A stretch of 64,000 bases of DNA, taken from the IMG/VR virus record IMGVR_UViG_3300042402_003388, positions 1-64,000 of that record. One strand, written 5' to 3'. The stretch is from a virus. Shown here in pieces: positions 8,923 through 47,798 of the stretch. How positions within the stretch are numbered: the first letter of the stretch is position 1; the number at the start of each line of letters is the position of its first letter. The notes beneath the pieces were generated by a model. The model saw only the letters and a list, made by a program, of their open reading frames with translations. It did no database searches and was not told where the DNA came from. The position numbers and the translations under genes are program-made.

Positions 8923-9711
8923 TTAGAATTTTGTACCACAGTTAGGACAAAATTTATGAGAATCTTTTTTTCTTTTTGAACCACATTCGGTACAGTAAAC
9001 TTTCAAATCTTTTGGTTCGTAAGGTTTGACTGAATCAGGAAGAATTTTCCAAACTGATTTTGATACTGTCCAAGAATTAAAATCTTTGTCGACAGTTGAG
9101 AATGATTGATTACTACTTCCACCCTTCTCGATTCTACCAGTTTCTAAACTTTTAGATTTTTTTAACCTTGGTACTGAACTTCTTATGTTTGGACCTGTAA
9201 AGGTGTTAGATGAATTAGAGAAATAAGACATTGAAACATTTGAAGAATAGTTAGTTGATGTTTGACCTAACCCTGTTGTGGTAAAGGTATTGGTACTATA
9301 GTGTAGTGGTTGAGATGGTGGGTAATTAGTAATCCATACAGGATTTGACATAATTGGTTTGATGTACTCCTCGTAGAATTCTATCGAGACATCACCATTG
9401 TTTGCAATGGCATTCAATACTTCATTGGATGACCCGTCAACTTCGTAAGTTTCAAATTTAAATTTTTTAGCATCGTCTAAATACCTTTCAAGAAAAACTC
9501 TTTGACCAGGTTTAATTACAAGACCACCACCTGAAAGATAGTTTCCGTTAATTTTAATTTTTGCTAACACTGTTGATTGGGATGGGTTGAATAATTCAAT
9601 TTCAAATTCTTCCCCATTTTTAAGATAGACTGATTGTCCAAATTGTTTAAGACGTTGTCTGTCTTTTGTAATGAACGCGCAAGGCGTTGCAGTTTTTGTT
9701 TGATAATACAT
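8923..9711 (-). CDS. Beta-rich protein with C-terminal zinc ribbon, 262 aa
   Basis: Residues 1-110 look like a beta-sandwich (EEFEIELFNP, TVLAKIKING, GLVIKPGQRVFLERYLD). A low-complexity Ser/Asn/Thr linker spans about 135-215. The last 25 residues are a zinc ribbon with two CxxC pairs (YCTECG ... FCPNCGTKF). Virion surface or host-interaction roles fit, but no family is assigned. It ends at a dedicated terminator. Confidence 0.7.
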   Translation of the reverse strand: MYYQTKTATPCAFITKDRQRLKQFGQSVYLKNGEEFEIELFNPSQSTVLAKIKINGNYLSGGGLVIKPGQRVFLERYLDDAKKFKFETYEVDGSSNEVLNAIANNGDVSIEFYEEYIKPIMSNPVWITNYPPSQPLHYSTNTFTTTGLGQTSTNYSSNVSMSYFSNSSNTFTGPNIRSSVPRLKKSKSLETGRIEKGGSSNQSFSTVDKDFNSWTVSKSVWKILPDSVKPYEPKDLKVYCTECGSKRKKDSHKFCPNCGTKF

Positions 9712-9835
9712 TTTTTCCTTATTTTAATTTTTATGTTTATTGAACCCCACTTTGTTGGTATTCCTCCAACTCAACCGTTATAAAAAACGGGTGGACCTCA
9801 GTAACAAGGTTTCACTATTAAATATATTATTGTTA

Positions 9836-9842
9836 TATTTAT
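9836..9842 (+). promoter_or_regulatory. Late-type TATTTAT box
   Basis: ATATTTATTGTAAAC, about 60 nt upstream of the likely start at 9904. Confidence 0.4.
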
Positions 9843-9903
9843 TGTAAACAACTTTTCAAAAGTTCTCGAAAGAGATAAATCTTTAGATATTATTTTATGG
9901 ACG

Positions 9904-10158
9904 GTGACAGTTATAGGGAAGAAAAACATAAAGAGAAAATTGGCGATGCTGAGTCTGATACTGGCAACGTTCTTCAATCCGTTAGGGTTCGACGCTCTGT
10001 TCGCGTTAATAATGAAATGGACAGGGTCTTATTGGACTACGGATTTAATTTTCTATTGCCTTTCGGCGTTGTTCTTTGGATTGTATTTTTGGTTATCACC
10101 AACGTCTAAAAGAGGGTACTATAACCTAAAAAGGAAGTTAAGGAGTTTTATTAAATAA
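9904..10158 (+). CDS. Small two-helix membrane protein, 84 aa
   Basis: Two hydrophobic segments (about 14-36 and 45-63) with a short loop and basic termini give a holin-like or envelope-inserted layout. The start is assigned to GTG 9904. An overlapping ATG ORF at 9897 in another frame (70 aa, Arg-rich) looks like the shadow. It converges with and overlaps the next gene by 21 nt. Confidence 0.65.
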   Translation: MTVIGKKNIKRKLAMLSLILATFFNPLGFDALFALIMKWTGSYWTTDLIFYCLSALFFGLYFWLSPTSKRGYYNLKRKLRSFIK

Positions 10159-10719
10159 CGAACTTAACTTAATTAATGATTCGGTTACAGGTTCTTTTGT
10201 TTGTGAACTTTTTTTAATCAAATCTTCAACTGTTTCATCAGGTACAATTAAATCTTGGTCATCTAATAATTCGCGAGGTACCCAAGGAACATCTTTACCA
10301 TTAATTTTGTCAACTTGTACCATATAATAGGCGAGGGTTTCTCTATCAACTATATATTTTCCCGTAGAAACTGTATGAAGAGAACCGTCTTCACAATATT
10401 CTGACGCCCATTTACCTATCGTTAATAATTCTTCGTCACTCAAATTTGGATAATCAACAATTAAATCAACGAATAAAGTGATGTGAACTGCATCATTATC
10501 CACATCTTCCATATCATAATCTAAAATATAGAAGTCAAATTCGTACTCATTCCCACTGGCTTTAAAAATTAACCAACCTTTAGAATTTTTTTGTATAAAA
10601 GATTTTAACTCATCGCTACCTTTACTTAGTTCACGTAATTTGTCAAAACCCCCAAAATACTTGGCGGCGTTAAATATATTACCTTGTTTTTTTATGAAAT
10701 CGATGATATTATTAGACAT
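10138..10719 (-). CDS. Hypothetical protein, 193 aa
   Basis: Not recognised. The start is at 10719, because the minus-strand TATTTAT box ends exactly 4 nt before this ATG; a longer frame to 10785 would run through the divergent promoter. The body is acidic (DYDMEDVDNDAV) and soluble. It is divergent from the metalloprotease-like gene at 10757. Confidence 0.7.
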   Translation of the reverse strand: MSNNIIDFIKKQGNIFNAAKYFGGFDKLRELSKGSDELKSFIQKNSKGWLIFKASGNEYEFDFYILDYDMEDVDNDAVHITLFVDLIVDYPNLSDEELLTIGKWASEYCEDGSLHTVSTGKYIVDRETLAYYMVQVDKINGKDVPWVPRELLDDQDLIVPDETVEDLIKKSSQTKEPVTESLIKLSSLFNKTP

Positions 10720-16204: not shown

Positions 16205-16993
16205 ATGGATAATAATAAAAAAATATTAGAGGAGATAAAAAGATTCCAGCAACTATCAAATATACAAGAATCTTCAATTAAAGAAGGGTTCATTGATGAT
16301 ATTATTGATTTAGGTTCTAAAGCCGTTGATACTGTATCTAAAACCGATTTAGTTAAAAAAATTAAATCATATATGTCAGATGATAAAAATGACAAGGAGG
16401 ATAATAGTGTGTTAAAAAAAATAAAAGATATTTTTAAAGGTACTGATTCGGAAGACGATATTGAAGATTTAGAGTTAGATAATATTAGTGAAAAAGGTCA
16501 AAAATTATTGGACAATGAAGTTTTCCAAGAAAAATTAGAAGAAATTTCAAAAGCGATAGACATTGACAAAAGTTCAATTATTAAGTTAATGAAACACGAA
16601 TCAGGTTTAGACCCTAAAATCAAAAATAGTATTGGTTGTGTTGGATTAATTCAATTCTGCCCTGGAGGAGGTTCAACTAAAACCGTAAATGGTAAAACAT
16701 ATACTTTAGACGAACTTGGGGACAACCTAAGTGTTCAGATGGACGCTATTAAAGATTTTTGGGTTAAAGGATATGAAAATGGTAAGATACAAAGTCCTGA
16801 GGATTTATACATTTATAATTTCTTCCCTGTTGCCGCTGGAAAACCAGATGATTTTGTGTTAAAAAGTAGTGGATTATCGGCAAAAACAGTTGCGAGAGCT
16901 AACCCAGTGTTTAATAGAGTGTTAGGCCAAGAGAATGACCAATTAACTGTTGGGGACCTCAAAAATTATTATAGAAAAACTGGAATGGTCTAA
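16205..16993 (+). CDS. Tagged lytic transglycosylase-like protein, 262 aa
   Basis: Residues 1-22 (ILEEIKRFQQLSNIQE, then S) are the second tag type, implying packaging in the virion and cleavage. Residues about 25-120 are a charged linker. Residues about 125-240 resemble an SLT-type lysozyme fold: IKLMKHESGLDPKIKNS with catalytic-type Glu in HESG, then GCVGLIQFCPGG, comparable to the G-x-x-GLMQ motif of Slt enzymes. This could locally open peptidoglycan during entry. A hairpin at the stop (ATGGTCTA/TAGACCAT) may terminate transcription. Confidence 0.75.
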   Translation: MDNNKKILEEIKRFQQLSNIQESSIKEGFIDDIIDLGSKAVDTVSKTDLVKKIKSYMSDDKNDKEDNSVLKKIKDIFKGTDSEDDIEDLELDNISEKGQKLLDNEVFQEKLEEISKAIDIDKSSIIKLMKHESGLDPKIKNSIGCVGLIQFCPGGGSTKTVNGKTYTLDELGDNLSVQMDAIKDFWVKGYENGKIQSPEDLYIYNFFPVAAGKPDDFVLKSSGLSAKTVARANPVFNRVLGQENDQLTVGDLKNYYRKTGMV

Positions 16994-17177
16994 AATTAGA
17001 CCATTAAAAATTTTTGTACGACATCAATAGAATAAATAACTACTCTAGTTGTTGTAAGATATGTTTTATATATAATACTTCTCATAATTTTTACACCTAT
17101 AATTACTTGTAAAGTAAGAATTTTCCCGTTTTTAGAAATAGTTTACTAATTTAAGGTAATAATCCGTATAAATAAAA

Positions 17178-17184
17178 TATTTAT
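17178..17184 (+). promoter_or_regulatory. Late-type TATTTAT box
   Basis: ATATTTATTAGG, 29 nt before ATG 17214. The leader holds TTACCAAGATATTAAAC, repeated exactly at 32211. Confidence 0.5.
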
Positions 17185-17213
17185 TAGGAAATAAATTACC
17201 AAGATATTAAACT

Positions 17214-19115
17214 ATGAAAAAACTCTTAGCGGTTGCCTCATTTCTATTAATGAGTGCAATCGGATTCTCTCAAACGTGTCCTACCCCGACCACAACAGGG
17301 GTCTTCGTTACGTTAGATTCAAACTACCAATTGGCACCGTCGGCGGCTGGTTTTACTAACGTAGGATTGTGTTTCTACAATAACACTACAACCCTAATCA
17401 CCGCGGCTCAATTCAGAGTATACTACGACAAACTTGCATTTTCAGGTGTTGACACAGTTACCTCATTAAACACATCGTATTCTCAGTATTTACAATATGT
17501 GGATAACCCCGCAAACGGATATGTAACAATTACATTATCTTATACGGGTAGTTTATCAACTTTTGAGATTCCTGACGGAGCGTTTGTACAATTAAAATTA
17601 CAACATATTACAGGATTCTCATCATTAACATCTGTTGGTAATATGTCGTTTAGTGGTGTAAACACATACCCTTCTATCTCTACAAGACAAGACGGTACTG
17701 ATAATACATTAACCTTACAAAACTTTGGTGGGGTTATGTTACCTCAGACATTTTCTTTTACAGGTACATTTACAAACGTTACAGGTACAGGGGCCAAAGA
17801 CTTAACAGTTGGTCTTGAGAAAAAACTTAGACCTAGTGGGTCTTGGACACCAGTAACAAGTACATTAACTAATACCTCAGGTGTCTTCGCATTTAACGAT
17901 ATTGCGGTCGATACTACAGGTTACGATGTTCGTATTAAAATTGTTGGAGATACTATGTCGGTAGGTAACGTTATCTCTACGGCAGATGCACAAAAAGTTA
18001 ATGACTATGTATTAGGTACTCAAACCCCAACAGGATTTGATTATTACGCGGCTGATGTTAACGGTGATAATAATATAACAATATCGGATGCTTATGGTGT
18101 ATTTGGTAGAATCTCAGGAAGATTCTCAGTTTGGCCAAACAGTGTTAAAGACGTTAAATTCTTTACATCCGCAGAATACACAACAATTAATGGTTCATCT
18201 ACGAATTACTTGTCATCAATTCCTGGTACTACAAACTTCACATTTAATATTATTGCGGGGGCACCTTCACCTACATTCTACGTGTTAGTTCCTGGTGACG
18301 CTAACGGTACAGGTTATCATATGGCTCGTGTTACACCAATTGAAGTGTTAATAAACCCACAACCTGGTGTTGAATCTCAAATTTATAATGTGATTGACAA
18401 TAGAGTTGAGTATGATTTCCCAACGACTTCGATTGAAGTTAATGTACCAAGATTATCAGTACAAGAAGGTAATTTAGTTAATATACCTGTAAAAGTTTTT
18501 ACAAGTGGTACTGACTTAGGTTCATTACAGTTTGGGTTAAAATATAATGATACATTATTGGAATTCAAAGGTATTGATTCTAAATCATCGGCTTCAAGTT
18601 GGTTAACATACTTAAATACTAACGATAACATTATTACTTGGGGTGGTTATGATAATAGTAATCATTTAAAACCTATACGTAACAACGATGAGGTGGTTAC
18701 TTTAAAATTTATAGCTAAACAACCACAAAATTTATGGGATGAAAGTCCTCTTTGGACTACAGATAAATTTGCTGGGGATAACCAATGTAAAGATTTGGAA
18801 ATAACCCCAACAAATGGAATTGTTCAAGTTTATAAAATGGTAAATGGACATATGACAGATGTTAATGGTATGATTGTTTACCCAAATCCGACTGAAGATT
18901 ACGTTACGGTTAAATTCGAAGTTAAAGAATATGGTAATGTTAGACTTTCGGTATACGGTGTTGATGGTAAGGAATATAAAGTAATGGTTAACGATAAAAT
19001 GCCTCAGGGCGATTATCAATACAGTACTAACTTAGGTTATCTACCTTCAGGTGTTTATATGGCGGTTCTTAAAAGAAGTGACATACAACTTACAAGTAAA
19101 ATTATTTTAAAATAA
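17214..19115 (+). CDS. T9SS-secreted cohesin/dockerin surface protein, 633 aa
   Basis: A signal peptide (1-19, cleavage GFS/Q) is followed by a cohesin-like beta-sandwich (about 28-165). Next come a second beta domain (180-245) and a dockerin-like Ca-binding pair (250-303, DVNGDNNITISDAYGVFGRI), then a further module with FFTSAEYTTI. A second cohesin-type domain spans about 408-540, and the C-terminal PNPTEDYVTVKFE...GVYMAVLK region (553-633) is typical of the type A sorting domain of type IX secretion. The product is predicted to cross the outer membrane via the host T9SS and be surface-attached or released. It heads a seven-gene envelope operon. Confidence 0.85.
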   Translation: MKKLLAVASFLLMSAIGFSQTCPTPTTTGVFVTLDSNYQLAPSAAGFTNVGLCFYNNTTTLITAAQFRVYYDKLAFSGVDTVTSLNTSYSQYLQYVDNPANGYVTITLSYTGSLSTFEIPDGAFVQLKLQHITGFSSLTSVGNMSFSGVNTYPSISTRQDGTDNTLTLQNFGGVMLPQTFSFTGTFTNVTGTGAKDLTVGLEKKLRPSGSWTPVTSTLTNTSGVFAFNDIAVDTTGYDVRIKIVGDTMSVGNVISTADAQKVNDYVLGTQTPTGFDYYAADVNGDNNITISDAYGVFGRISGRFSVWPNSVKDVKFFTSAEYTTINGSSTNYLSSIPGTTNFTFNIIAGAPSPTFYVLVPGDANGTGYHMARVTPIEVLINPQPGVESQIYNVIDNRVEYDFPTTSIEVNVPRLSVQEGNLVNIPVKVFTSGTDLGSLQFGLKYNDTLLEFKGIDSKSSASSWLTYLNTNDNIITWGGYDNSNHLKPIRNNDEVVTLKFIAKQPQNLWDESPLWTTDKFAGDNQCKDLEITPTNGIVQVYKMVNGHMTDVNGMIVYPNPTEDYVTVKFEVKEYGNVRLSVYGVDGKEYKVMVNDKMPQGDYQYSTNLGYLPSGVYMAVLKRSDIQLTSKIILK

Positions 19116-19120
19116 AAAAT

Positions 19121-19141
19121 GAGGTCACAAATTGTGACCTC
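19121..19141 (+). repeat. Near-perfect 10-bp inverted repeat without T-run
   Basis: GAGGTCACAA-A-TTGTGACCTC lies directly after the T9SS protein gene, but CTTAGCC follows instead of a T-run. It may be an attenuator or an RNA-stability hairpin. The arms recur in the terminator at 41264. Confidence 0.6.
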
Positions 19142-19183
19142 TTAGCCTTTAAACAATAAACTAAATTAAAACAAACAAATATT

Positions 19184-19522
19184 ATGTCAGAGGAAACAAA
19201 CGTACCTGAATCAGATGGAACTTGGTCAGGGTTAAAGAAAACAATCATCGGAACACTAACTACAGTAATTGCTGGAGGTGGGGTATGGGTATCAACAATG
19301 TTATTTGGAGGTCATTCAGAAGAAAAAGAAGAACCTAAAACTGAACAAACTGCGGCACCCGCACCAGTTATAGTTAACGTACAACAAAATCAAGAAAATA
19401 AACAAAAAGTTGAAAACGGTGGTGGTACTAACACAATCATTAAAGAACGTGTTATTGAAAAACCTGCGGCTCAGACAACTGAACCTGCTAAACCTGTTAA
19501 AAAAGAAGAGGAATCTTGGTAA
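19184..19522 (+). CDS. Single-pass membrane protein with Pro/Ala/Lys/Glu tail, 112 aa
   Basis: An N-terminal hydrophilic 15 residues, one transmembrane segment (about 18-42, IIGTLTTVIAGGGVWVSTML), then a long charged, Pro/Ala-rich extension, perhaps spanning the periplasm like a TonB-type linker. The stop codon overlaps the start of the CsgG-like gene (TAATG), so they are coupled. No family assigned. Confidence 0.7.
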   Translation: MSEETNVPESDGTWSGLKKTIIGTLTTVIAGGGVWVSTMLFGGHSEEKEEPKTEQTAAPAPVIVNVQQNQENKQKVENGGGTNTIIKERVIEKPAAQTTEPAKPVKKEEESW

Positions 19523-20238
19523 TGAAAAAGTTATTGTACACCCTACTACCCATAATATTACTTTCTTGTAAAGTTAGTGGTCAAATAGGAACGGTTAAAA
19601 CCGAACAGTATCAAGCGGATTTTGAAAAAAAACAATCCATATCTGTTGTGTCGGATTATACAGATACAATTGTAATTCCTATTCAGGTTCTTAAAATCGG
19701 AATCAATGAGGAATTATACTCTATGTACCCTGAACTTAAAGATAAAAGAGTCGGTTTAGGGGTGGCAAATATCGTTTTAGAATACTTGGAATCTACTGAT
19801 AGATTTAAATTTACTGAAGATAAAGAGGAAATTAAACAGAAAATGATTGCACAAGACAAAGCTTCTGATAAAGGAATTTCAAGTAACAAAATAGAGGTTA
19901 AGGGTAATGTAATCTTAGCCAAATATTTTGTTTATATCGAAGTGTATGACTTTTCAGTTTCTGAAGATGAGGTCGTTAAAGCGACTGATGGTGCTAAAAC
20001 AACTCAAACAACTCGTTTAGGGTTACAAGTTAGATTTGTGGATGCTGAGACAGGTGAAATCTACACAGGTAGTGGTTTAGGTGAAGCGTCAACGGTTAAA
20101 ACATCATCATTGTTGTCAGATGTTGAAGACATTAAATTTAATCAATCAACAATAGGTATTTCGACAAAAAAGGCTCTTGAAACGGCATCGTCAAGAGTTG
20201 TGTCAAAATTAATAAAAAAGGGTGTCTTTAAATCTTAA
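19522..20238 (+). CDS. CsgG-like outer-membrane secretion lipoprotein, 238 aa
   Basis: The lipoprotein signal has lipobox LLSC (Cys16). The mature part fits the CsgG family: VGLGVANIVLEYLESTDRFKF early, then FVDAETGEIYTGSGLGEA, and a C-terminal STIGISTKKALETASSRVVS. CsgG forms a nonameric outer-membrane channel that exports curli subunits, and length agrees (about 240-270 in the family). Neighbours are a membrane protein, an outer-membrane barrel and secreted proteins, consistent with an envelope secretion or surface-display module. Confidence 0.8.
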   Translation: MKKLLYTLLPIILLSCKVSGQIGTVKTEQYQADFEKKQSISVVSDYTDTIVIPIQVLKIGINEELYSMYPELKDKRVGLGVANIVLEYLESTDRFKFTEDKEEIKQKMIAQDKASDKGISSNKIEVKGNVILAKYFVYIEVYDFSVSEDEVVKATDGAKTTQTTRLGLQVRFVDAETGEIYTGSGLGEASTVKTSSLLSDVEDIKFNQSTIGISTKKALETASSRVVSKLIKKGVFKS

Positions 20239-20243
20239 AAAAA

Positions 20244-20591
20244 ATGAGTTTAAAAAATTTATTAATGGGTGAAACCAAACTTGTAAAAGTAGAAGATAAA
20301 AATCGTTTCTATTATATGTTACAACAAATGCAATCAAACCGTTGGAGAATTACCGCAGTAGTGTTGGGATTATTTTTCTTCATAATCTTAGGAATCAACG
20401 CGGGTATATTCTTTGGAATGACTGTAGGTGAGGATTGGAAAGAAATGTTATTAATTTTATTAGGTGCCTTTGTTGGTAACTTAAATAAAGTTGTTGACTA
20501 TTGGTTTAACTCTGAAGATAGAGATAAAATGTTAATTCAAAAAGTGGACGAAGAAGACGGAGTTTCTTTATCTAACACAACTGAAATCTAA
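20244..20591 (+). CDS. Two-helix inner-membrane protein, 115 aa
   Basis: Two transmembrane helices (about 36-59 and 67-88) are flanked by charged ends. The second helix and its continuation LILLGAFVGNLNKVVDYWFN resemble phage holin-like membrane proteins. It lies 5 nt after the CsgG-like gene in the same operon. The role is inferred from topology only. Confidence 0.65.
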   Translation: MSLKNLLMGETKLVKVEDKNRFYYMLQQMQSNRWRITAVVLGLFFFIILGINAGIFFGMTVGEDWKEMLLILLGAFVGNLNKVVDYWFNSEDRDKMLIQKVDEEDGVSLSNTTEI

Positions 20592-20592
20592 G

Positions 20593-22188
20593 ATGAACAT
20601 TAAGAAAATTTTATTAACACTAAGTTTTCTGTTCACAACATTAATGGTATTTGGACAGGGGTTTTCGTATACATATACGGACCCCTGTACTAATAAAATT
20701 AAAGAACTTTTCATTAATAACCCTAATGGAAATATTGCCTTAATGTATTATGGTCAGGTGCAAAGTTTTACCCCAACTCAATTACAATCAGGTGCCTTGG
20801 AGCAATGGATTACTCAAATTAATTCATCAAATCCTTCAGGACCTTGTAGTGGTGTTGCGTTATACCAAAATACGACAATGAATGCAATTATAGCTGCAAA
20901 TAATATTGCGGTACTAACTAATGTCCTATCGGCATTAAGTGACATATCATCAATGGGAGGAGCCAATATTGGGGGTATTGTTGAAGCTAAGGAAAAATCT
21001 AATTCCGAAGACGGTAAAACAAAACCTAAAGAAGGTCAATCAACCAACGGAGGGACAACTCAAAATAACTCTCAAAATACAGGTTCTCAGGGGTCTAATC
21101 CCCAAACAACCAACGGAACAACCAACGGAAATCCAATCCAAAATGGTGGTTCTAACGGTCAAACAACCTCAAATTCGGGGTCATCGACCATTAACAATCA
21201 AACACAAAATAATGGTACCACAAATAACAATGGAGGAGGTTCAGTTACTTCTGGAGGAAATCAAACGAACTCGCAATCACAAACAAGTAATGGAACTAAC
21301 CAAAACTCTGGAGGAGGTAATTCAGGTCAAGGAACAACAACATCAACAACAGGAGGAAACACTACAAATACAGGTAACTCACCTCAAGGAGGAGGTCAAA
21401 CGACTCAATCATCTGTAACAACGTCTAATGGTGGGGGTTCCCAAGGTTCAGGAGGAAATACTACTAACAATGGAAATGAAAAACCAAATGAGGATAAGTT
21501 AAATGATATGACTAAAACCTCATCATCTAATTCATCTCAAGTTAAATCTAAAGTTGCCAATGCAAAACAAGGTGGAATTTTATTAACGGGTGATATTGTT
21601 GCGATTAGCAGTGCGTCGGGTGAAGAGGCTCAACAGTTTAGGGTTAATATGAGTTTAACAAAATCAAATACGGATAACACATTTGTTAGAGGTGCTTTAC
21701 TTAATTTTACCAGTTCTATTAACAATTCAAATATTACCTTTTTTGCGGGATACCGAAGAAAAAACTTAACATCGATTATAGCCAATTCATCGATGTTAAA
21801 CTTTGAAAAAGATTTTTTCAATACAACCTCAATAATGGAATCTTATAAATATAAAAATATTACAGGTACTTTAGGGGTTAATTACACCACAGGTAATTTA
21901 GGTTCCGCGAGATTCCAAAGTTTATCCGCATTAGGGGGATTAATTGGTACTTTTAAAGTTACAAAAAAAATAAATAACACAACTATGTTAGTATTTGTAT
22001 ATTCACCATATGTATATTATTATGAAGGGTTGTGGTACGAATCAGGATGGTTGGCGGTACCATTCACTGCGTTTGATTATCGAATAAGTAGTAAATTTAA
22101 ATTAAATTTAAGTTTCAGTGGGGTTCAACAAGTCAAAGACGCCACATTAAATTACCAAGTATTACTTGGGGCTAAAGCTTTATTATAA
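20593..22188 (+). CDS. Outer-membrane barrel protein with Gln/Asn/Gly/Ser/Thr-rich region, 531 aa
   Basis: A signal peptide (1-21, VFG/Q) precedes a globular N-domain to about 120. A roughly 190-residue low-complexity segment (about 135-320) dominated by Gly, Asn, Gln, Ser and Thr follows. The C-terminal ~190 residues show alternating hydrophobic strands with aromatic ends (ITFFAGYRRKNL, GTLGVNYTTG, LVFVYSPYVYYYEG), typical of an outer-membrane beta-barrel. The composition of the middle resembles curli-like or prion-like polar sequences, notable beside a CsgG homologue. Confidence 0.75.
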   Translation: MNIKKILLTLSFLFTTLMVFGQGFSYTYTDPCTNKIKELFINNPNGNIALMYYGQVQSFTPTQLQSGALEQWITQINSSNPSGPCSGVALYQNTTMNAIIAANNIAVLTNVLSALSDISSMGGANIGGIVEAKEKSNSEDGKTKPKEGQSTNGGTTQNNSQNTGSQGSNPQTTNGTTNGNPIQNGGSNGQTTSNSGSSTINNQTQNNGTTNNNGGGSVTSGGNQTNSQSQTSNGTNQNSGGGNSGQGTTTSTTGGNTTNTGNSPQGGGQTTQSSVTTSNGGGSQGSGGNTTNNGNEKPNEDKLNDMTKTSSSNSSQVKSKVANAKQGGILLTGDIVAISSASGEEAQQFRVNMSLTKSNTDNTFVRGALLNFTSSINNSNITFFAGYRRKNLTSIIANSSMLNFEKDFFNTTSIMESYKYKNITGTLGVNYTTGNLGSARFQSLSALGGLIGTFKVTKKINNTTMLVFVYSPYVYYYEGLWYESGWLAVPFTAFDYRISSKFKLNLSFSGVQQVKDATLNYQVLLGAKALL

Positions 22189-22189
22189 A

Positions 22190-22642
22190 ATGAAAACATT
22201 ATTATTAATTACATTGGCAACTTTAATGTCAATAACATCTTACTCTCAGTCGTGTTTTACTGTTAAAAGTGTTCAAACTAAAGACAGTATTCAAGGGATT
22301 AGCCCTAAACGATTCACATTGGGGGTAAAACAAATAACTGAAGAGGTATTATCTGAAAAATATTCTATATGTGAAGACGGGAAACCTGTTTCAGTTGTGA
22401 TTGAAAGTATTGAGGCTCCTACTACAGGTATCTCAATAGGTCCGTTCGAGAAAAAAAGAAAGGTTACTATAGTAACATTAAAAGTGACTATCGACAATAA
22501 AGATTACATTGGTGTTGGGGAGAGTAAAATTGATGTCAAATCAACTTTTATTGAATTACAAGATGAAAATATACCATTTGAAAAATCTTCATTTTCGGCA
22601 GGTTTGAAAAAGGCTTTAATTAATGCGGTTAATAAAATCTAA
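22190..22642 (+). CDS. Secreted small protein of envelope operon, 150 aa
   Basis: A signal peptide (1-19, SYS/Q), then a mature domain of about 130 residues with alternating strands (PVSVVIESIEAP, KVTIVTLKVTIDNKDYIGVGES) and a final helix. The layout is reminiscent of small periplasmic partners of CsgG systems, but similarity to CsgE/CsgF is not clear by eye. The start at 22190 is 1 nt after the upstream stop, and the 3' end overlaps the lectin gene by 20 nt. Confidence 0.7.
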   Translation: MKTLLLITLATLMSITSYSQSCFTVKSVQTKDSIQGISPKRFTLGVKQITEEVLSEKYSICEDGKPVSVVIESIEAPTTGISIGPFEKKRKVTIVTLKVTIDNKDYIGVGESKIDVKSTFIELQDENIPFEKSSFSAGLKKALINAVNKI

Positions 22643-24320
22643 GGTTAGAAACATAATATTTGTTTTGGTTTTGTTCTTCACAAATGTTGTTGTGGGGCAA
22701 AATTTTACTTATTCGGGGTATATCTACAATTCAAATGGGGTTGGGGCTTCAAATGTCCCTGTGAGATTATATAAAAGAACGACTCCATCATTAAACGGAT
22801 TTACATCCCAAACCAACTATAATGGACACTCATATTATCGTTCAACAGGTTCAATGTTTTGGTTAGACGCAAAAACCGCTTGTGAAAATATGAACGGTCA
22901 TTTAGCGACAATCTCAGATGTTTCCGAGAGAAATTTTCTTTTTAACACTTGGCCTTCAGGGTGGATAGGATATTATCAAGATAAAACAGGTCCCTTTTTT
23001 TCAGAACCTTTAGGTGGGTGGAGATGGACCGAAAATTATGTAACCGCAACTCAAACTAATAATTACGATGTTAGTAGTTATAGTTCAGGTAGTGTTTTAA
23101 CTGATTTAAAAAATTCAAAAAATATTACATTATATAATTCGCCAGTCCTTACTACAGGTGGTGGAAAATACCTAACATTTAATGGTGTTAATACCTATGG
23201 GATTACACCAAGTTTAACAAGTCATTTCACAAATTCAAACGTAATCACATTAGTACTATGGGTGTACCCAACAGGAAATGGTGTTATATTAAGTGAATTA
23301 GGAATCCCATCACCATCTTCAGGATGGCACGAATCTGTGGTCGAGATTACTGGTGGTAATACATTAAGATGTGGTTTTTGGAATGGTACGGGAATTACTC
23401 AAATATCTACAAGTATTACGTTAAATCAGTGGTGTATGATAGCATTAACCTATAATGGGTCGACAATGACAGGATATAGAAATGGAGTGTCTTTTGGTAG
23501 TACAACATTTAGTAGATTTAGTCCTCATTTAAATGGTGGTGGAGACCAAATTTTTGCGTTAGGATTAACTGATGCGACTAATATGGGTCACGGTGGATAT
23601 GGTTCTTTCAGATTAGGTGCGTTCCAAGTGTATAATACTTCTTTAACTTCAGATGAAATAAATAGAAATTATATGTCATTATCTTACAGGTTTGGTATAA
23701 ATCCATATCTATCGTGGAATGGTGGAGAACCGAATAATTCAGGAACTGAGGATTACGCTCAATTTGTTGGAGGTGGTCTATGGAACGACTTACCTAATAA
23801 TGTTTCGTTACCTTATGTACTTGAATTTGATTATATCGTTACCTTTACTCCTTGGGTATTATTTAAAACCGTGTATACGGATTTTACAGGTAAATACACA
23901 ATTAATGAATCCACCAACCCATCAGTTGAGTGGTATATTCAATTAGACGCTCCTACCACAATTACAGGTCTACAAAATATTGATGCAATAGCGGCGTCCA
24001 CAAAGGCAATAAGTAGGTCCTTCACTTCTTTAGATTATTATAAGTACGATGTTAATAATGATGGTAATATTACGGTATCTGACGAGTATTATATTTTTAT
24101 GAAAAAGAATGGAAGGTTTTCAAGTTGGGGTCCCTCTTTACCGAGCGTTAGATTATTTACTTCATCCCAATTTTCAATAATTAATTCGTCGACTAATGAC
24201 TTAAGAAGTACTTATCCTGGTGTTCAAAGTATAACTATATCAACACCAACCAATGGAGGTAGTTCAAATTATTATTTAATTAATACGGGGTATTCTAATA
24301 GTACTATTTTAGGGTATTAA
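22623..24320 (+). CDS. Secreted lectin with nested domains and dockerin-like module, 565 aa
   Basis: A signal peptide (about 8-25) precedes a beta-sandwich start (FTYSGYIYNSNGVGASNVPV) that is interrupted at about residue 65 and resumes near 405 (YTDFTGKYTINE). Within it is a C-type lectin domain split into an N-half (WLDAKTACENMNGHLATISD) and a C-half (WNGGEPNNSGTEDYAQFVGG, WNDLP). Between those halves lies a LamG/concanavalin-like domain (about 160-350). A dockerin-like Ca-binding segment (472-499, DVNNDGNITVSDEYYIF) and a short tail follow, matching the module order of the 633-aa protein. No T9SS sorting domain is present. Confidence 0.8.
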   Translation: MRLIKSKVRNIIFVLVLFFTNVVVGQNFTYSGYIYNSNGVGASNVPVRLYKRTTPSLNGFTSQTNYNGHSYYRSTGSMFWLDAKTACENMNGHLATISDVSERNFLFNTWPSGWIGYYQDKTGPFFSEPLGGWRWTENYVTATQTNNYDVSSYSSGSVLTDLKNSKNITLYNSPVLTTGGGKYLTFNGVNTYGITPSLTSHFTNSNVITLVLWVYPTGNGVILSELGIPSPSSGWHESVVEITGGNTLRCGFWNGTGITQISTSITLNQWCMIALTYNGSTMTGYRNGVSFGSTTFSRFSPHLNGGGDQIFALGLTDATNMGHGGYGSFRLGAFQVYNTSLTSDEINRNYMSLSYRFGINPYLSWNGGEPNNSGTEDYAQFVGGGLWNDLPNNVSLPYVLEFDYIVTFTPWVLFKTVYTDFTGKYTINESTNPSVEWYIQLDAPTTITGLQNIDAIAASTKAISRSFTSLDYYKYDVNNDGNITVSDEYYIFMKKNGRFSSWGPSLPSVRLFTSSQFSIINSSTNDLRSTYPGVQSITISTPTNGGSSNYYLINTGYSNSTILGY

Positions 24321-24352
24321 TATACTATCTAAGATATATGTTGTTTTTCAAA

Positions 24353-24359
24353 TATTTAT
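24353..24359 (+). promoter_or_regulatory. Late-type TATTTAT box
   Basis: ATATTTATAGTAAA, 31 nt upstream of ATG 24391. Confidence 0.5.
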
Positions 24360-24390
24360 AGTAAATAAACTATTATAAAATATTAAAACA

Positions 24391-25212
24391 ATGTTATTAA
24401 AAAAAGGTTCTAAAGGTGAAGACGTAAAAAAATTACAATCAAAATTAGGTCTTGTCGCTGATGGAGATTTCGGTCCTGGTACTGAAACAAAAGTTAAAGA
24501 ATGGCAAGCGGCAAACGGTTTAACTGCAGATGGTATCGTAGGTGACGGTACTTGGGGTAAAATGTTTGCGGGAGAAGTCATTAAAGAAGACGTGGTAATC
24601 CCAACGGGAGGACCATTAAAATTAGAAAAATTAAAAGGTCATATTCCTGACGCGGTAATCGCTCAAATTCCTGAGACTGCTGCTAAATTCAATATTACAA
24701 CACCATTAAGATTAGCCCATTTCTTGGCACAATGTGGTCACGAATCAGGAGGTTTTAAGGCGGTTAGTGAGAATGTAAACTATTCTGCAGATGGTCTTAA
24801 AAAAATATTTGGGAAGTACTTCCCTGGTAATTTGGCAGAGTCTTACGCAAGACAACCTGAAAAAATTGCATCTCGTGTTTACGGGGGTAGAATGGGTAAC
24901 GGTGACGAAGCGTCAAAAGAAGGGTTTAAATTCCGTGGAAGAGGCTACATCCAATTAACTGGAAAATCAAACTATACAAACTTTGCCAAGTTTATTGGTG
25001 AGGATACTGTGGCAAATCCTGATTTGGTTGCAACTAAATACCCATTAGCATCTGCGGCGTTTTTCTTTGACTCAAATAAACTTTGGTCTATTTGTGATAA
25101 AGGTGCTGACGAAGCGACAGTAACTGCGGTGACTAAAAGAGTGAATGGTGGGACTATTGGATTAGTCGATAGATTAAAACATTTTAAAGAATATTATTCA
25201 CTTTTAGCATAA
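24391..25212 (+). CDS. Endolysin: peptidoglycan-binding plus GH19 domain, 273 aa
   Basis: Residues 1-65 are a PG_binding_1 domain (GSKGEDVKKLQSKLG, DGDFGPGTETKVKEWQ). Residues about 85-273 are a glycoside hydrolase 19 lysozyme/chitinase-type catalytic domain with GHESGGFKAVSENVNYSADG (catalytic Glu pair) and FRGRGYIQLTGKSNY. It cleaves peptidoglycan glycan strands at lysis. No signal peptide, so a holin is needed; the small membrane proteins at 12897 and 49980 are candidates. Confidence 0.9.
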   Translation: MLLKKGSKGEDVKKLQSKLGLVADGDFGPGTETKVKEWQAANGLTADGIVGDGTWGKMFAGEVIKEDVVIPTGGPLKLEKLKGHIPDAVIAQIPETAAKFNITTPLRLAHFLAQCGHESGGFKAVSENVNYSADGLKKIFGKYFPGNLAESYARQPEKIASRVYGGRMGNGDEASKEGFKFRGRGYIQLTGKSNYTNFAKFIGEDTVANPDLVATKYPLASAAFFFDSNKLWSICDKGADEATVTAVTKRVNGGTIGLVDRLKHFKEYYSLLA

Positions 25213-25239
25213 ATCGTCATTGATTTAAAAAAAATTGTT

Positions 25240-25247
25240 TATATTTG
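25240..25247 (+). promoter_or_regulatory. Host-type -7 box
   Basis: TATATTTG, 24 nt before ATG 25272; the -33 element is weak. Confidence 0.4.
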
Positions 25248-25271
25248 CATTACACGATTAATAAGAAAAGT

Positions 25272-25499
25272 ATGATTGAAGATTTCAAAAAAGATTATGA
25301 TTGGGTAATCAACGTATTACAGTCTTGTACTAAACAAGGTCAATTAGACACTACTGAAAAATGTTATGGACAGTTTAAAGATAAGTGGTCAAGTTTTTTT
25401 AAATCAAACGATAGTCAAATAGATAAACTCACATTTGAATATGATGAAAAGTTTCAAATTATTTTGACTCATAAAAGAAACACATTGGGGTGGAACTAA
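25272..25499 (+). CDS. Small hypothetical protein, 75 aa
   Basis: Soluble, helical, with two Cys (QSCTKQ, EKCYGQ) and a C-terminal beta strand (FQIILTHKRNTLGWN). ATG 25272 is chosen over an in-frame TTG inside the promoter. Its stop codon lies in the loop of a terminator hairpin. Not recognised. Confidence 0.7.
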   Translation: MIEDFKKDYDWVINVLQSCTKQGQLDTTEKCYGQFKDKWSSFFKSNDSQIDKLTFEYDEKFQIILTHKRNTLGWN

Positions 25500-28344: not shown

Positions 28345-28376
28345 TTTGTAAAATAAAAAATAAAATTGTATTTTTG
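28345..28376 (+). promoter_or_regulatory. Host-type promoter, leaderless
   Basis: TTTG (28345-28348), N20, TATTTTTG (28369-28376), 4-nt gap to ATG 28381. Confidence 0.65.
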
Positions 28377-28380
28377 TACT

Positions 28381-28839
28381 ATGAAAAAAATAATATTATT
28401 CCTTTTAGTTTTAATTAGTGTTCCGTCTTACGGACAATACTCAGGATTAACGGTAATCCCTGAGGATAGAAGTGTAATTTGTTCATTCGAGAATATCAAT
28501 GACGATAACTTTGGATTTTATATTGGGGCCTTTTATAAAATTGGTGCAACATCTAATCCGTATATCTATCGAACCCCTTACGCATATTTTAATAGAATAG
28601 GTATTAACTACGGATTTTTAAAGTGTGGGTTAGTTGTTGGTGCTGGTGTTAAGACTGATTTAACTATAGGTCCTGACCCTGTTTTTTATCCTGATGTTAT
28701 GGTTAAACTACAACCAATAAAACTTTTAACCCGTAATAAAGACATATGGGATATATCTGTTACTGTTGGAGTTACTGACATACCGTATATTGGTTTTGGA
28801 ATTTCTATACCTTATCGGTACGGAACCTACTATCGATAG
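28381..28839 (+). CDS. Secreted, probable small outer-membrane barrel protein, 152 aa
   Basis: A signal peptide (1-18, SYG/Q) is followed by repeated short amphipathic strands (FGFYIGAFYKIG, AYFNRIGINYGFL, CGLVVGAGVKTD, IPYIGFGISIPYRYG), typical of an eight-stranded outer-membrane barrel. A host-type leaderless promoter suggests early expression. A possible role is altering the cell surface, for example superinfection exclusion. Confidence 0.7.
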   Translation: MKKIILFLLVLISVPSYGQYSGLTVIPEDRSVICSFENINDDNFGFYIGAFYKIGATSNPYIYRTPYAYFNRIGINYGFLKCGLVVGAGVKTDLTIGPDPVFYPDVMVKLQPIKLLTRNKDIWDISVTVGVTDIPYIGFGISIPYRYGTYYR

Positions 28840-28846
28840 TATTTAT
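28840..28846 (+). promoter_or_regulatory. Late-type TATTTAT box
   Basis: GTATTTATTGTTATG: 4-nt gap to ATG 28851; the box overlaps the upstream stop. Confidence 0.55.
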
Positions 28847-28850
28847 TGTT

Positions 28851-29843
28851 ATGAACAATAACCCAAATTTATATAATATAGTCAATAGAGTAATTAAAGA
28901 TAAGGTTTTCCAATACGAGGGACCTTTTGTTAGTGGAGCCCCTGATTTCAAGATTAAGTGTTCATTTAAAATTGAATTAGTGGGTGACGTTGAGTTACTT
29001 CATATGGGGGAACCTAGAAATCACGTTGGGGTTAAAGTTTATATTACTGAATTTACTCCACATCAGTTTTCGGACTTATTAGATAAATGTGATACTCGAA
29101 ATAAGTGTTGGGATAGGTCCTACCATTTTACAAGAGAACTTACTCAATACATTTGGAGAGTATTACAACATTTTAGTATAAATGATGACCCTAGTATTGA
29201 ATCAATCGAATATATAGGTAAAAAATATGACCCATTAGAAACACACCCTGAAATGATTAAAGAAACTAAATCAGAAAAAAGAAACGTAGTTAGAAAAGTT
29301 GTTGAAGATATTGTTAGAGTATTTAAAACCCGAGGAGAGGGGGATTATTTATTGCCTGAGGATATTAGTGAAGAAATTACGTATAACTTTCATAATTTAA
29401 AAACAGAATTTAATCTTGAGTTAACCATTATTAAATCGGATGAAATCGAGGATTACGAACTTGATGGTGGTTATTATGATGATGAGGACACTATGGAGAT
29501 TGAAATTATCTACAATGAAAATGCGTTTCCACAAAAAATGTATGATTTAGTTGGTAGTTTAAATGAAACTGTTAGACACGAATTACAACATTTAATACAG
29601 TCGGAAAGGGGTGATTACAAACCAAGTAACCCGACTAACAATCCTAAGAAATATTATGTACAACCACACGAGTTAGATGCTCAGGTTGCGGGTCTTAAAC
29701 GAATTTCTAAAATAAGAAAACAACCATTTGAACAAAGTGCACGAGAATGGTTTGCAAAAAATAAATCTAAACATACCTTAGATGATAAACATCAAGAGAA
29801 GGTAATTCAAAGAATCTTACAGTACTATAAGGATGGCAAATAA
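28851..29843 (+). CDS. Protein with C-terminal HExxH metallopeptidase-like domain, 330 aa
   Basis: Residues 1-150 are a mixed alpha/beta domain. After a linker, residues about 150-330 contain ETVRHELQHLIQSERG (HELQH, HExxH type) and HELDAQVAGLKRI as a likely third ligand region. This is the third HExxH protein in the window. Target unknown. The start codon of the next gene lies 11 nt inside this one. Confidence 0.7.
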   Translation: MNNNPNLYNIVNRVIKDKVFQYEGPFVSGAPDFKIKCSFKIELVGDVELLHMGEPRNHVGVKVYITEFTPHQFSDLLDKCDTRNKCWDRSYHFTRELTQYIWRVLQHFSINDDPSIESIEYIGKKYDPLETHPEMIKETKSEKRNVVRKVVEDIVRVFKTRGEGDYLLPEDISEEITYNFHNLKTEFNLELTIIKSDEIEDYELDGGYYDDEDTMEIEIIYNENAFPQKMYDLVGSLNETVRHELQHLIQSERGDYKPSNPTNNPKKYYVQPHELDAQVAGLKRISKIRKQPFEQSAREWFAKNKSKHTLDDKHQEKVIQRILQYYKDGK

Positions 29844-45564: not shown

Positions 45565-45636
45565 GGTCCCTTCGTCTATCGGTTAGGACATATCCCTTTC
45601 ACGGATAAAAGACGGGTTCGATTCCCGTAGGGACTA
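45565..45636 (+). tRNA. tRNA-Glu(TTC)
   Basis: Loop CTTTCAC; T arm ACGGG-TTCGATT-CCCGT; first gene of array 1. Confidence 0.9.
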
Positions 45637-45657
45637 CAAAACTTAAAAAATATTATT

Positions 45658-45921
45658 ATGCCAGAATTTAACACTTATGTTGATGTAGACGTTTACGAAT
45701 TTATTGATGAATGTTCAAAAAGTGAAATTAATGAGTTAATTGACGATTTAATTGATAGGGGTTACTTAAACAAAAATAGTAAAGGGGTTGGTAAACCACC
45801 GAAATATTCATTAATTGAGGAAACTCATAGAGATTATTGTGATGTTTTGGCGAATTCTTACCATAGAATGAGTAAGGAAGACGAAGAAACAATCGCGAAT
45901 ATTGCTAAAAAATATTCGTAA
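45658..45921 (+). CDS. Small acidic hypothetical protein, 87 aa
   Basis: A protein-coding gene inside the tRNA array. The N-terminal half is helical and acidic (VYEFIDECSKSEINELIDDL); GKPPKYSLIEE resembles winged-helix or anti-activator surfaces, but no family is assigned. It lies between tRNA-Glu and tRNA-Ala, so it is probably on the same transcript. Confidence 0.7.
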   Translation: MPEFNTYVDVDVYEFIDECSKSEINELIDDLIDRGYLNKNSKGVGKPPKYSLIEETHRDYCDVLANSYHRMSKEDEETIANIAKKYS

Positions 45922-45928
45922 TAAAAAT

Positions 45929-46002
45929 GGGGGTGTATGTCTCAAGGCCGACGAGAATGATTTGCAATCAATCTGGGGTGAGTTCGATTCTCACCATCTC
46001 CA
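45929..46002 (+). tRNA. tRNA-Ala(TGC), divergent
   Basis: Acceptor GGGGGTG/CATCTCC, loop TTTGCAA, T arm intact. The D arm (TGTC...GACG) and anticodon stem (one A-A mismatch) deviate from consensus. Confidence 0.75.
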
Positions 46003-46005
46003 CAA

Positions 46006-46097
46006 TGTTATCATAGCTCAGTAGGATGAGGCCGCAATCGGATTCCTTTAAACAACGCGTGAGGGGCGGCTTTCACGATGTGGCTGAAGTGATAACA
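46006..46097 (+). ncRNA. tRNA-like element without T loop
   Basis: A perfect 8-bp closing helix TGTTATCA/TGATAACA and a tRNA-type D arm (TAGCTCAG...GAG) surround GCCGC/GCGGC and CTTCA/TGAAG helices. No GTTCGA T loop and no clear anticodon are present. It may be a decayed tRNA or a tRNA-mimicking RNA processed by RNase P. Confidence 0.55.
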
Positions 46098-46107
46098 AAT
46101 AATATAT

Positions 46108-46179
46108 CGCGGGATAGAGCAGTGGTAGCTCGCAAGGCTCATAACCTTGAGGTCGGGGGTTCGAATCCCTCTCCCGCAA
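46108..46179 (+). tRNA. Initiator tRNA-fMet(CAT)
   Basis: Position 1 C is opposite A72 (CGCGGGA/TCCCGCA), the hallmark of initiator tRNA. The D arm GAGCAGTGGTAGCTC is fMet-like. The loop CTCATAA reads CAT, but the anticodon stem is CAAGG/CCTTG rather than three G-C pairs. Confidence 0.8.
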
Positions 46180-46188
46180 CTAATATAT

Positions 46189-46262
46189 CGTGGGTTAGAC
46201 TGGAGGTGGTTCCAGCTTGGTCTCATAAGCCAAAGACGGGGGTTCGAGTCCCTCACCCGCAA
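46189..46262 (+). tRNA. Second tRNA-Met(CAT) with C1-A72 mismatch
   Basis: Acceptor CGTGGGT/ACCCGCA also has C1 opposite A72; loop CTCATAA. The D arm is unusual (GACTGG...CCAGC). It is preceded by the same TAATATATCG string as the initiator tRNA, suggesting duplication. Confidence 0.7.
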
Positions 46263-46340
46263 CAAAGTGTCTCGGTCCGCTCTGACGAAAGTTAACGACG
46301 AGGTCTCGGTAGACAGAACGCGTCTGATTCTACCCAAAAT
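46263..46340 (+). other. Spacer with a strong hairpin
   Basis: GGTAGA-CAGA-ACGCG-TCTG-AT-TCTACC forms a long hairpin near 46309-46335; TCTCGGT occurs twice. No gene is recognised. Confidence 0.4.
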
Positions 46341-46413
46341 GCGAGAGTAGCTCAGTTGGTAGAGCACAACCTTGCCAAGGTTGGGGTCGCGGGTTCGAAT
46401 CCCGTCTCTCGCT
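46341..46413 (+). tRNA. tRNA-Gly(GCC)
   Basis: Acceptor GCGAGAG/CTCTCGC, loop TTGCCAA. Confidence 0.92.
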
Positions 46414-46422
46414 CAATAATAA

Positions 46423-46495
46423 GCGGATATCGTATAATGGCTTATTACTTCAGCCTTCCAAGCTGAAGATGTGAGTTCGATTCTCACTATCCGCT
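46423..46495 (+). tRNA. tRNA-Gly(TCC)
   Basis: Acceptor GCGGATA/TATCCGC, loop CTTCCAA. Confidence 0.92.
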
Positions 46496-46500
46496 CAAAA

Positions 46501-46573
46501 GGTCCCGTGGTTGAATGGTTACAATTCCACCCTGTCACGGTGCGAGGTACGGGTTCGAATCCCGTCGGGACCG
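46501..46573 (+). tRNA. tRNA-Asp(GTC)
   Basis: Acceptor GGTCCCG/CGGGACC, loop CTGTCAC. Confidence 0.92.
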
Positions 46574-46581
46574 CAAACTTT

Positions 46582-46653
46582 GGTCTATTCGTTCATCGGC
46601 TAGGATGCTACCCTGTCACGGTAGTGAGGAGGGTTCGATTCCCTCATAGACCG
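46582..46653 (+). tRNA. tRNA-Asp(GTC), second copy
   Basis: Acceptor GGTCTAT/ATAGACC, loop CTGTCAC; diverged from the neighbouring Asp gene outside the anticodon loop. Confidence 0.92.
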
Positions 46654-46683
46654 CAAAAATAAATTAATTTATACTTATTGAGT

Positions 46684-46842
46684 ATGGATAAAGAAAAATG
46701 GGATTCTGATGAATGGCAAGGGCGTTCTAAAGACAGGGTCGAAAAAAACAATAAAGTTTTTGGATACTCTATATTACTTACAATACTTGGTACAGTAATT
46801 TGTTATTTATACGTCATAATATCCACTTATTTTAGATTTTGA
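46684..46842 (+). CDS. Small single-pass membrane protein, 52 aa
   Basis: A hydrophilic N-terminus (MDKEKWDSDEWQGRSKDRVE) is followed by one transmembrane helix (about 28-47) and a short tail. Found within the tRNA region; not recognised. Confidence 0.6.
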   Translation: MDKEKWDSDEWQGRSKDRVEKNNKVFGYSILLTILGTVICYLYVIISTYFRF

Positions 46843-46874
46843 TTTGTTATTTCGTAAAAAATTTACTAAATTTG
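46843..46874 (+). promoter_or_regulatory. Host-type promoter
   Basis: TTTG (46843-46846), N20, TAAATTTG (46867-46874). Confidence 0.6.
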
Positions 46875-46892
46875 TAGTGTAAATAAAATATT

Positions 46893-47069
46893 ATGTGGGT
46901 AATTGTAAAATTAATGGAAAGTCTTAATGGTGTTAAAGTTCCTGTCATTATCTTAGATGGACACTCAGAAATTTGGGAATTTGAAACTGAAGAAGAGGCG
47001 GTTAAAATGAGAGACATTTTTTCTAAAAACTCGGACTCAGGTCACGTTTACTTAGTTAAAAAAGTCTAA
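46893..47069 (+). CDS. Small hypothetical protein, 58 aa
   Basis: A compact beta-alpha-beta layout: WVIVKLMESLNGVKVPVIIL, then an acidic helix (FETEEEAVKMRDIF) and a final strand (GHVYLVKKV). Probably real: it has a host-type promoter and lies just upstream of tRNA-Arg. Function unknown. Confidence 0.65.
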   Translation: MWVIVKLMESLNGVKVPVIILDGHSEIWEFETEEEAVKMRDIFSKNSDSGHVYLVKKV

Positions 47070-47074
47070 CAAAT

Positions 47075-47148
47075 GGTTCCGTAGCTCAGCTGGATAGAGC
47101 AACTGCCTTCTAAGCAGTAGGTCACAGGTTCGAATCCTGTCGGGACTA
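47075..47148 (+). tRNA. tRNA-Arg(TCT)
   Basis: Loop CTTCTAA; acceptor GGTTCCG/CGGGACT. Confidence 0.9.
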
Positions 47149-47163
47149 CTAAATTAAAAAATT

Positions 47164-47418
47164 ATGGTTGATATTAATCAAGATATTGTATTTGAGGAAG
47201 AACATAATGAGTTTATTAAAAGTGAGTTATTCTGTCAAATGATGAAAGAAAAAATAGAACATTCTGCGTATCATAAATTTGATGGTATTGCACCTGAAGG
47301 ATTTACGTTGGTACCAAATGAGGTGTTAGAAGAACTTAAGGACTTTGACAATTGGAAGGAGTTTAAATACGATTTAGAATGGATTAAGAAAAATTCTATA
47401 AAGTATTTGGTAGTTTAA
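47164..47418 (+). CDS. Hypothetical protein, 84 aa
   Basis: Small, acidic, helical, with a conserved-looking turn FDGIAPEGFTLVPNEVLEEL. Sits between tRNA-Arg and a lipoprotein gene. Not recognised. Confidence 0.7.
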   Translation: MVDINQDIVFEEEHNEFIKSELFCQMMKEKIEHSAYHKFDGIAPEGFTLVPNEVLEELKDFDNWKEFKYDLEWIKKNSIKYLVV

Positions 47419-47435
47419 CTTATAAAAAATAATAT

Positions 47436-47714: not shown

Positions 47715-47719
47715 AATAA

Positions 47720-47792
47720 GCCTCCTTAGCTCAGCTGGTAGAGCACTTCACTTGTAATGAAGGGGTCGTAGGTTCGAATCCTACAGGAGGCT
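47720..47792 (+). tRNA. tRNA-Thr(TGT)
   Basis: Acceptor GCCTCCT/AGGAGGC, loop CTTGTAA. Confidence 0.92.
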
Positions 47793-47798
47793 CAAATT

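Follow-up and report, generated by a model that had tools for sequence, protein, structure and literature searches.

A phage envelope gene module combining a CsgG-like protein, a predicted outer-membrane barrel and exchanged lectins

Gene content and conservation of the module

We analyzed a block of envelope genes at positions 17214-24320 of a viral DNA stretch comprising positions 1 to 64,000 of the 100.5-kb record IMGVR_UViG_3300042402_003388 (hereafter, the window). The host of this phage is probably a member of Bacteroidota. The block extends from the gene of a cohesin-domain protein to that of a secreted lectin, L565. The original prediction, made from the letters of the window, had described the part from 19184 onward as a curli-like secretion module of six genes in one tight operon with coupled starts. 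An open reading frame (ORF) check of the window found 6/6 of these genes where they had been placed. The operon layout also held: the stop codon of A112 and the ATG of the CsgG-like gene overlap in TAATG (19520-19524), the 565-residue ORF begins 20 nucleotides before the end of the 158-residue ORF, and the gene order was kept in 113 loci. The extent of the operon had to be amended, because it had left out the gene of the cohesin protein with a type IX tail (17214-19115), which belongs to the operon or immediately precedes it. The genes of the block are listed below.

17214..19115, + strand: cohesin protein, 633 residues; signal peptide, dockerin-like loop, cohesin domain and C-terminal type IX (Por) sorting domain
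19184..19522, + strand: A112, putative inner-membrane protein; weak Gly/Thr-rich membrane segment and Pro/Ala/Asn/Gln-rich periplasmic part
19522..20238, + strand: CsgG-like protein, 238 residues; signal peptide with a lipobox in the window phage, predicted periplasmic CsgG fold without the membrane-hairpin signature
20244..20591, + strand: IM115, putative inner-membrane protein; strongly conserved, accessory
20593..22188, + strand: B531, 531 residues; signal peptide, N-terminal 'DPCT' domain, low-complexity linker and predicted C-terminal barrel (about 21535-22185)
22190..22642, + strand: S158, secreted small CsgG-like paralogue, assigned by hhalign to the CsgG-like family
22623..24320, + strand: L565, secreted lectin; C-type lectin and laminin-G-like domains, C-terminal module in common with the cohesin protein

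In scans of IMG/VR, the CsgG-like protein had 217 and 245 relatives and S158 had 276; those of the CsgG-like protein were reduced to 113 distinct sequences for the analysis of synteny. The block was shared by about 113 distinct phage loci in a near-constant order, cohesin - A112 - (IM115) - CsgG-like - (IM115) - B531 - {S158, L565}, a recurrence far above chance. Module genes were overlapping or adjacent across these relatives, with median gaps between neighbors of -7 to +18 nucleotides. In the window, ATG 19522 was a better start for the CsgG-like ORF than TTG 19516. Only a single contig in genome_contigs matched, a 254-kb contig from a metagenome bin; on this sequence evidence the module looks phage-specific. 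A bacterial origin was rejected, as this sole match is itself probably phage.

The nearest cultured phage carrying the module was Flavobacterium phage immuto (Immutovirus, 160 kb; host Flavobacterium sp. LMO8). Its gp13-gp19 correspond to the module genes in nearly the same order, are annotated mostly as hypothetical and otherwise as C-type lectin or cohesin domain proteins, and are surrounded by replication and nucleotide genes. The module was also seen in very large phage contigs (L126, 434 kb; L157, 373 kb; L131, 344 kb), in addition to phages of about 100-160 kb. A description of this gene combination was not found in the literature searched, most subscription journals lying outside that search.

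Five module proteins had a signal peptide, the exceptions being A112 and IM115. For each of the five, signal-peptide-like hydrophobic N-termini were found in 58-62 of 62 homologues by a simple hydropathy test. Taken from sequences and models, the module comprises these five signal peptides, a 12-strand outer-membrane barrel, a pair of CsgG-fold proteins, a cohesin protein with a type IX tail and an exchanged lectin region.

The CsgG-fold pair, the barrel and the lectins

Structural modeling predicted that the CsgG-like protein has a CsgG fold. The AlphaFold model, a monomer built from an alignment of 27 homologues, had a predicted local distance difference test (pLDDT) score of 62 and a predicted template modeling (pTM) score of 0.58. 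Its first 17 Foldseek matches were all CsgG or curli-complex structures (best E=2e-7, 4uv2), and its top VIA matches were also CsgG (6lqh, Z 12.0 over 155 residues at 4.1 Å), with PelC, LptE and FlgT among the fold matches below CsgG. Searches of PDB sequences with the family, both single-sequence and profile, returned nothing useful. The basis of the assignment is thus the predicted fold, together with a weak profile alignment to CsgG of E. coli, pelagiphages and Bacteroidota that was colinear over the core. The Pfam CsgG model touched only 2 of the 27 homologues (best E=0.01), with no match within the window record.

The original prediction had taken this protein for a CsgG-like outer-membrane lipoprotein, CsgG being a pore for unfolded amyloid subunits. 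The fold and, in the window phage, the lipobox (LLSC) agreed with this. The lipobox was absent in immuto and present in just 45 of 99 distinct N-termini, indicating that the lipid anchor is not conserved. In all 27 homologues, the region aligned to the TM1 membrane hairpin of CsgG, which holds SVSEDE..., had 5-8 charged residues, 3-5 of them acidic, and zero aromatics, whereas TM1 of five curli-type CsgG proteins had 2-4 charged, 0-1 acidic and 2-3 aromatic residues and a GGVGARYFG-type motif. The TM1 signature, GGxGxxYxG with few charges, was not found in any of the 27. We infer that the CsgG-like protein is a periplasmic ring or collar without the CsgG-type barrel, and would work as an adaptor instead of a curli pore.

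S158, one of two proteins that had been called secreted, was indeed secreted, as was the other, L565, but S158 turned out to be a paralogue of the CsgG-like protein: it aligned to that family with an hhalign probability of 92% (E=5e-7, 113 columns), and its fold was taken from this homology. Identification of S158 as CsgE was rejected (hhalign E=0.33), and profile matches to ribosomal protein S1, confined to a short stretch, were taken as chance.

For the protein with a Gly/Asn/Gln/Ser/Thr-rich segment, modeling bore out the barrel. Homologues of B531 consist of a conserved N-terminal domain of about 110 residues, a Gly/Asn/Thr/Ser/Gln linker of about 50-380 residues and a barrel of about 205 residues, for which AlphaFold confidently predicted 12 strands (pLDDT 82, pTM 0.72). 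In fold, the barrel came closest to FapF, the translocator NalP and the porins NanC and KdgM. Among the Pfam matches found for 29 homologues there was no translocator family (best unrelated E=0.004), no PDB sequence match was obtained, and the N-terminal domain had no recognised relative. Because the low-complexity segment has few hydrophobic residues (near zero), no clear period (best lag z 2.6 of 44 lags) and such a variable length, it looks like a linker; its identification as an amyloid or curlin-like repeat was rejected on the first two grounds. A match of the B531 N-terminus to CsgF (E=0.002) was driven by the signal peptide and was also rejected. Judged from the models, B531 is a likelier outer-membrane channel than the CsgG-like protein.

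A112 had been described as a periplasm-spanning membrane protein; its membrane segment is only weakly hydrophobic. It has an invariant C-terminal Trp, and a coiled coil was not evident. IM115 has two hydrophobic segments, one strong and one weaker, and in many loci its gene stands on one side or the other of the CsgG-like gene. Its matches in PHROGs, checked for a named holin, were weak and nearly all of unknown function.

The cohesin protein of the window matched the type IX sorting domain (Pfam PF18962, E=2e-11) and the cohesin domain (PF00963, E=1e-10). Pfam found the type IX tail in 22 of 24 homologues, of which 18 had the cohesin domain and 11 matched dockerin. The NCBI model TIGR04183 scored 30.6 bits against a cut-off of 23, which the proteins of immuto and of locus L083 also passed, and the N-terminus was hydrophobic in 58 of the 62 homologues. 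By sequence, the cohesin protein thus bears the type A sorting domain and signal peptide of type IX cargo. A type IX tail was not found in the window copy of L565. The two proteins have in common a 98-residue module with an EF-hand/dockerin-like loop (E=6e-17). Homologues of L565 carried a C-type lectin domain in 18 of 25 cases, a laminin-G-like domain in 8 of 25, and occasionally PA14, pentaxin or Ig-like domains. In L083, an extra 273-residue secreted barrel-like protein (9516-10337) lies between L565 and S158, and in other loci these two genes are separated by gaps of about 580 nucleotides or more; a second synteny class may therefore carry an extra small outer-membrane protein.

We compared the module proteins over 62 non-redundant complete loci, taking mean identity over the union of aligned columns. 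Mean identity was 0.66 for the CsgG-like protein, 0.51 for A112, 0.44 for the cohesin protein, 0.43 for S158 and 0.40 for the barrel, and fell to 0.21 for the middle of L565, the length of which was 289 +/- 161 residues. Pairwise identities of S158 followed those of the B531 barrel closely (r=0.90), and those of the CsgG-like protein followed the cohesin protein (r=0.78) and A112 (r=0.69), while the CsgG-like protein and A112 correlated with S158 or B531 at r of 0.33-0.44. The L565 middle correlated with the envelope genes at r of only 0.14-0.26, and L565 middles were less than 20% identical in 53 of the 133 pairs whose CsgG-like identity exceeded 85%. The pattern suggested by these alignments is that of a fixed apparatus with exchanged binding domains.

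Surroundings of the module

Two further features lie at the edges of the genes above.

19121..19141, no strand: perfect 9-bp inverted repeat (GAGGTCACA...TGTGACCTC) between the cohesin gene and A112
24391..25212, + strand: GH19 endolysin with a peptidoglycan-binding domain, a frequent neighbor outside the core module

Since the inverted repeat parts the cohesin gene from A112, the cohesin gene may be a separate transcription unit in the window; elsewhere, the gap between the two genes has a median of 13 nucleotides. A second perfect 9-bp inverted repeat (16984-17005) flanks the cohesin gene on its other side. Terminator-like hairpins, these two repeats among them, numbered 11 in 16900-25400, above the 4.0 +/- 2.2 expected from shuffles. 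The scan for sigma-70-like promoters found 50 against 36.5 +/- 7.8 expected, which was not clearly above shuffles. The octamer TANNTTTG, the Bacteroidota -7 promoter element, occurred 121 times in window positions 1-64000 against 96 +/- 9 expected, an enrichment that fits a Bacteroidota host.

Upstream, an SLT transglycosylase without a signal peptide (16205-16993) matched phage baseplate-hub and lytic tail families and is probably a virion lysin. At 28366-29843, a 157-residue secreted protein with a barrel-like sequence lies beside a 330-residue ORF with an HExxH-like motif (HELQH), and L029 and L030 carry homologues of both as a pair, 2-3 kb upstream of the module. A tRNA cluster at 45565-52376 has 26 genes covering most amino acids, out of 29 tRNA genes in the window, and its GC content is raised, reaching up to 0.45.

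Comparison with known systems and interpretation

Phage curli modules are known from pelagiphages and the methylophage Melnitz, and their purposes are debated between sibling capture, superinfection defence and lysis (PMC7029224, PMC9599517, PMC9004378). Work on marine phage genomes also counted csgG with the most abundant 'virulence genes' (PMC7003362). Like those modules, the window module is a phage operon in which a CsgG-fold protein is joined by secreted partners. The curli modules, however, contain bona fide CsgG and CsgF, with curlin repeats in the pelagiphages, and the window module has none of these; it has instead a 12-strand barrel, a second CsgG-like protein, a cohesin protein with a type IX tail, and lectins, and its hosts are different, probably Bacteroidota. 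CsgF (PF10614) was absent from the window record and 12 relatives, whereas the control, pelagiphage HTVC008M, matched at 5e-17. CsgE (PF10627) was likewise absent from these records, whereas the E. coli control matched. For curlin repeats (PF07012) there was no match in the window record and one sub-threshold match in one of the 12 relatives, and only HTVC008M was above the cut-off. The CsgG of HTVC008M itself scored 180 bits with Pfam.

'Curli-like' in the strict sense was therefore abandoned, and a CsgG-type pore is doubtful, because Pfam CsgG touches so few homologues, the lipid anchor is not conserved, acidic residues stand in place of the hairpin signature, and the module lacks CsgF, CsgE and curlin repeats. 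The original idea of a phage envelope or secretion module stands in its broader form, with a CsgG-fold protein, an outer-membrane barrel and lectins as adhesive proteins, and the module falls outside curli and type VIII secretion, closer to a barrel-plus-collar export or display module.

Several known systems resemble parts of it. PelB-PelC and LptD-LptE likewise pair an outer-membrane barrel with a small partner of CsgG/LptE-like fold, a likeness to the window module by fold. The type V autotransporters and FapF share with B531 a signal peptide, an N-terminal domain, a linker and a C-terminal 12-strand barrel, but B531 is only about 7-12% identical to them, matches no family, and has an N-terminal domain without a recognised relative. 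Cryophage encodes type IX cargo, namely an endoglucanase, a GH39 protein and a PA14 protein, in variable islands, and such phage-encoded cargo was reported as unique (PMC7468147). There, too, phage proteins with a type IX tail presumably use the host system, and cargo varies between variants. The window module differs in having one conserved cohesin gene, placed first in a fixed envelope module.

We consider the most probable function, at slightly under an even chance, to be that of a trans-envelope export or display module that puts exchangeable lectins on the surface of the infected Bacteroidota cell. A112 would be the inner-membrane anchor of the assembly. The proposed role of the CsgG-like protein and of S158 is that of collars in the periplasm, comparable to PelC with PelB or LptE with LptD, and S158 would be the one that serves the B531 barrel. 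B531 would be the outer-membrane exit or anchor, through which the assembly exports or anchors L565. The cohesin protein would leave by the host type IX system, and L565, without a type IX tail, would take the phage's own route and dock on the cohesin protein via the shared dockerin-like module. The benefit would probably be binding of neighboring cells, masking of the cell's own receptors, or both. Several points weigh against this function. The model of the CsgG-like protein, which bears on its hairpins and oligomeric state, is of only moderate quality; complex formation, the lectin export route and the cohesin-dockerin pairing are steps that we infer; the identity correlations share a common phylogeny, so they are not independent tests; and nearly half of the 113 distinct loci have a GH19 endolysin no more than about 1.5 kb away, which pure display leaves unexplained.

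That endolysin, found on either side and either strand, is among the evidence for an outer-membrane lysis module, which we regard as unlikely. Here A112 and the CsgG-like lipoprotein would be a two-part spanin, or the barrel and CsgG complex would open the outer membrane; the GH19 endolysin and a holin-like IM115 would act alongside. The overlap of an inner-membrane protein gene with a lipoprotein gene is spanin-like, although the membrane segment of A112 is weak, and a similar proposal was made for CsgG of phage Melnitz (PMC9004378). However, a two-component spanin has an outer-membrane lipoprotein partner, whereas the lipobox is not conserved here, and A112 has no evident coiled coil. Presence of the endolysin was independent of IM115 (19/36 loci with it, 15/26 without), and immuto lacks IM115 and has its annotated endolysin about 6 kb off. 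The type IX-tailed cohesin protein and the exchangeable lectins are superfluous for lysis, which leaves the exchange of lectins unexplained, and because the lectins are exchanged, surface display is favored over a lysis pore. Exchange of the lectin region would also fit pressure from competing phages, as expected if superinfection exclusion were the main purpose, with surface lectins or the envelope complex masking or blocking phage receptors like a surface-exclusion lipoprotein. The TraT surface-exclusion lipoprotein gave one of the weaker fold matches (Z 7.0, 128 residues, 4.2 Å), which may reflect only a common fold arrangement. This proposal overlaps display and differs from it in purpose alone, and we think it rather improbable.

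A further reading is a true CsgG-type pore exporting amyloid or unfolded substrate, in a curli system diverged so far that its CsgF, CsgE and fiber genes go unrecognised. The uniformly CsgG top matches in Foldseek and VIA, the colinear profile alignment, the resemblance of the barrel to FapF of the Fap amyloid system, and the known pelagiphage modules (PMC9599517, PMC7029224) speak for it. The charged TM1 region without aromatics or the GGVGARYFG motif, the low-complexity segment nearly without hydrophobic residues, and the curli components absent from the records searched make it quite improbable. Lectin domains are common in phage receptor-binding proteins, so that the products could be imagined as receptor-binding tail parts of the virion. 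Since A112 and IM115 are the only components without a signal peptide, and those of the other five recur in nearly all homologues as described above, the module is unlikely to be virion structure. The type IX tail, the integral barrel and the position of the immuto module among replication and nucleotide genes further argue against virion proteins, and we find this explanation highly improbable.

A stronger form of the display proposal is that the module is a previously undescribed machine, in which a dedicated trans-envelope apparatus, made of an inner-membrane anchor, two CsgG-fold collars and an autotransporter-like barrel, and the host type IX system together coat infected cells with exchangeable lectins and so reprogram the host surface during infection. 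We put this forward tentatively, as possible. In hundreds of phage contigs from Bacteroidota, the largest of about 430 kb, some 7 kb appear to be given over to envelope proteins without an obvious replication role, and the module genes are under strong conservation, yet the lectins are swapped. If surface display is true, a non-curli class of CsgG-fold proteins would be set apart from the reports of phage 'curli', and why phages carry CsgG-like genes would become testable in culture with immuto and Flavobacterium sp. LMO8. Infected cells would then gain new surface adhesins, affecting aggregation, superinfection and particle attachment in aquatic systems.

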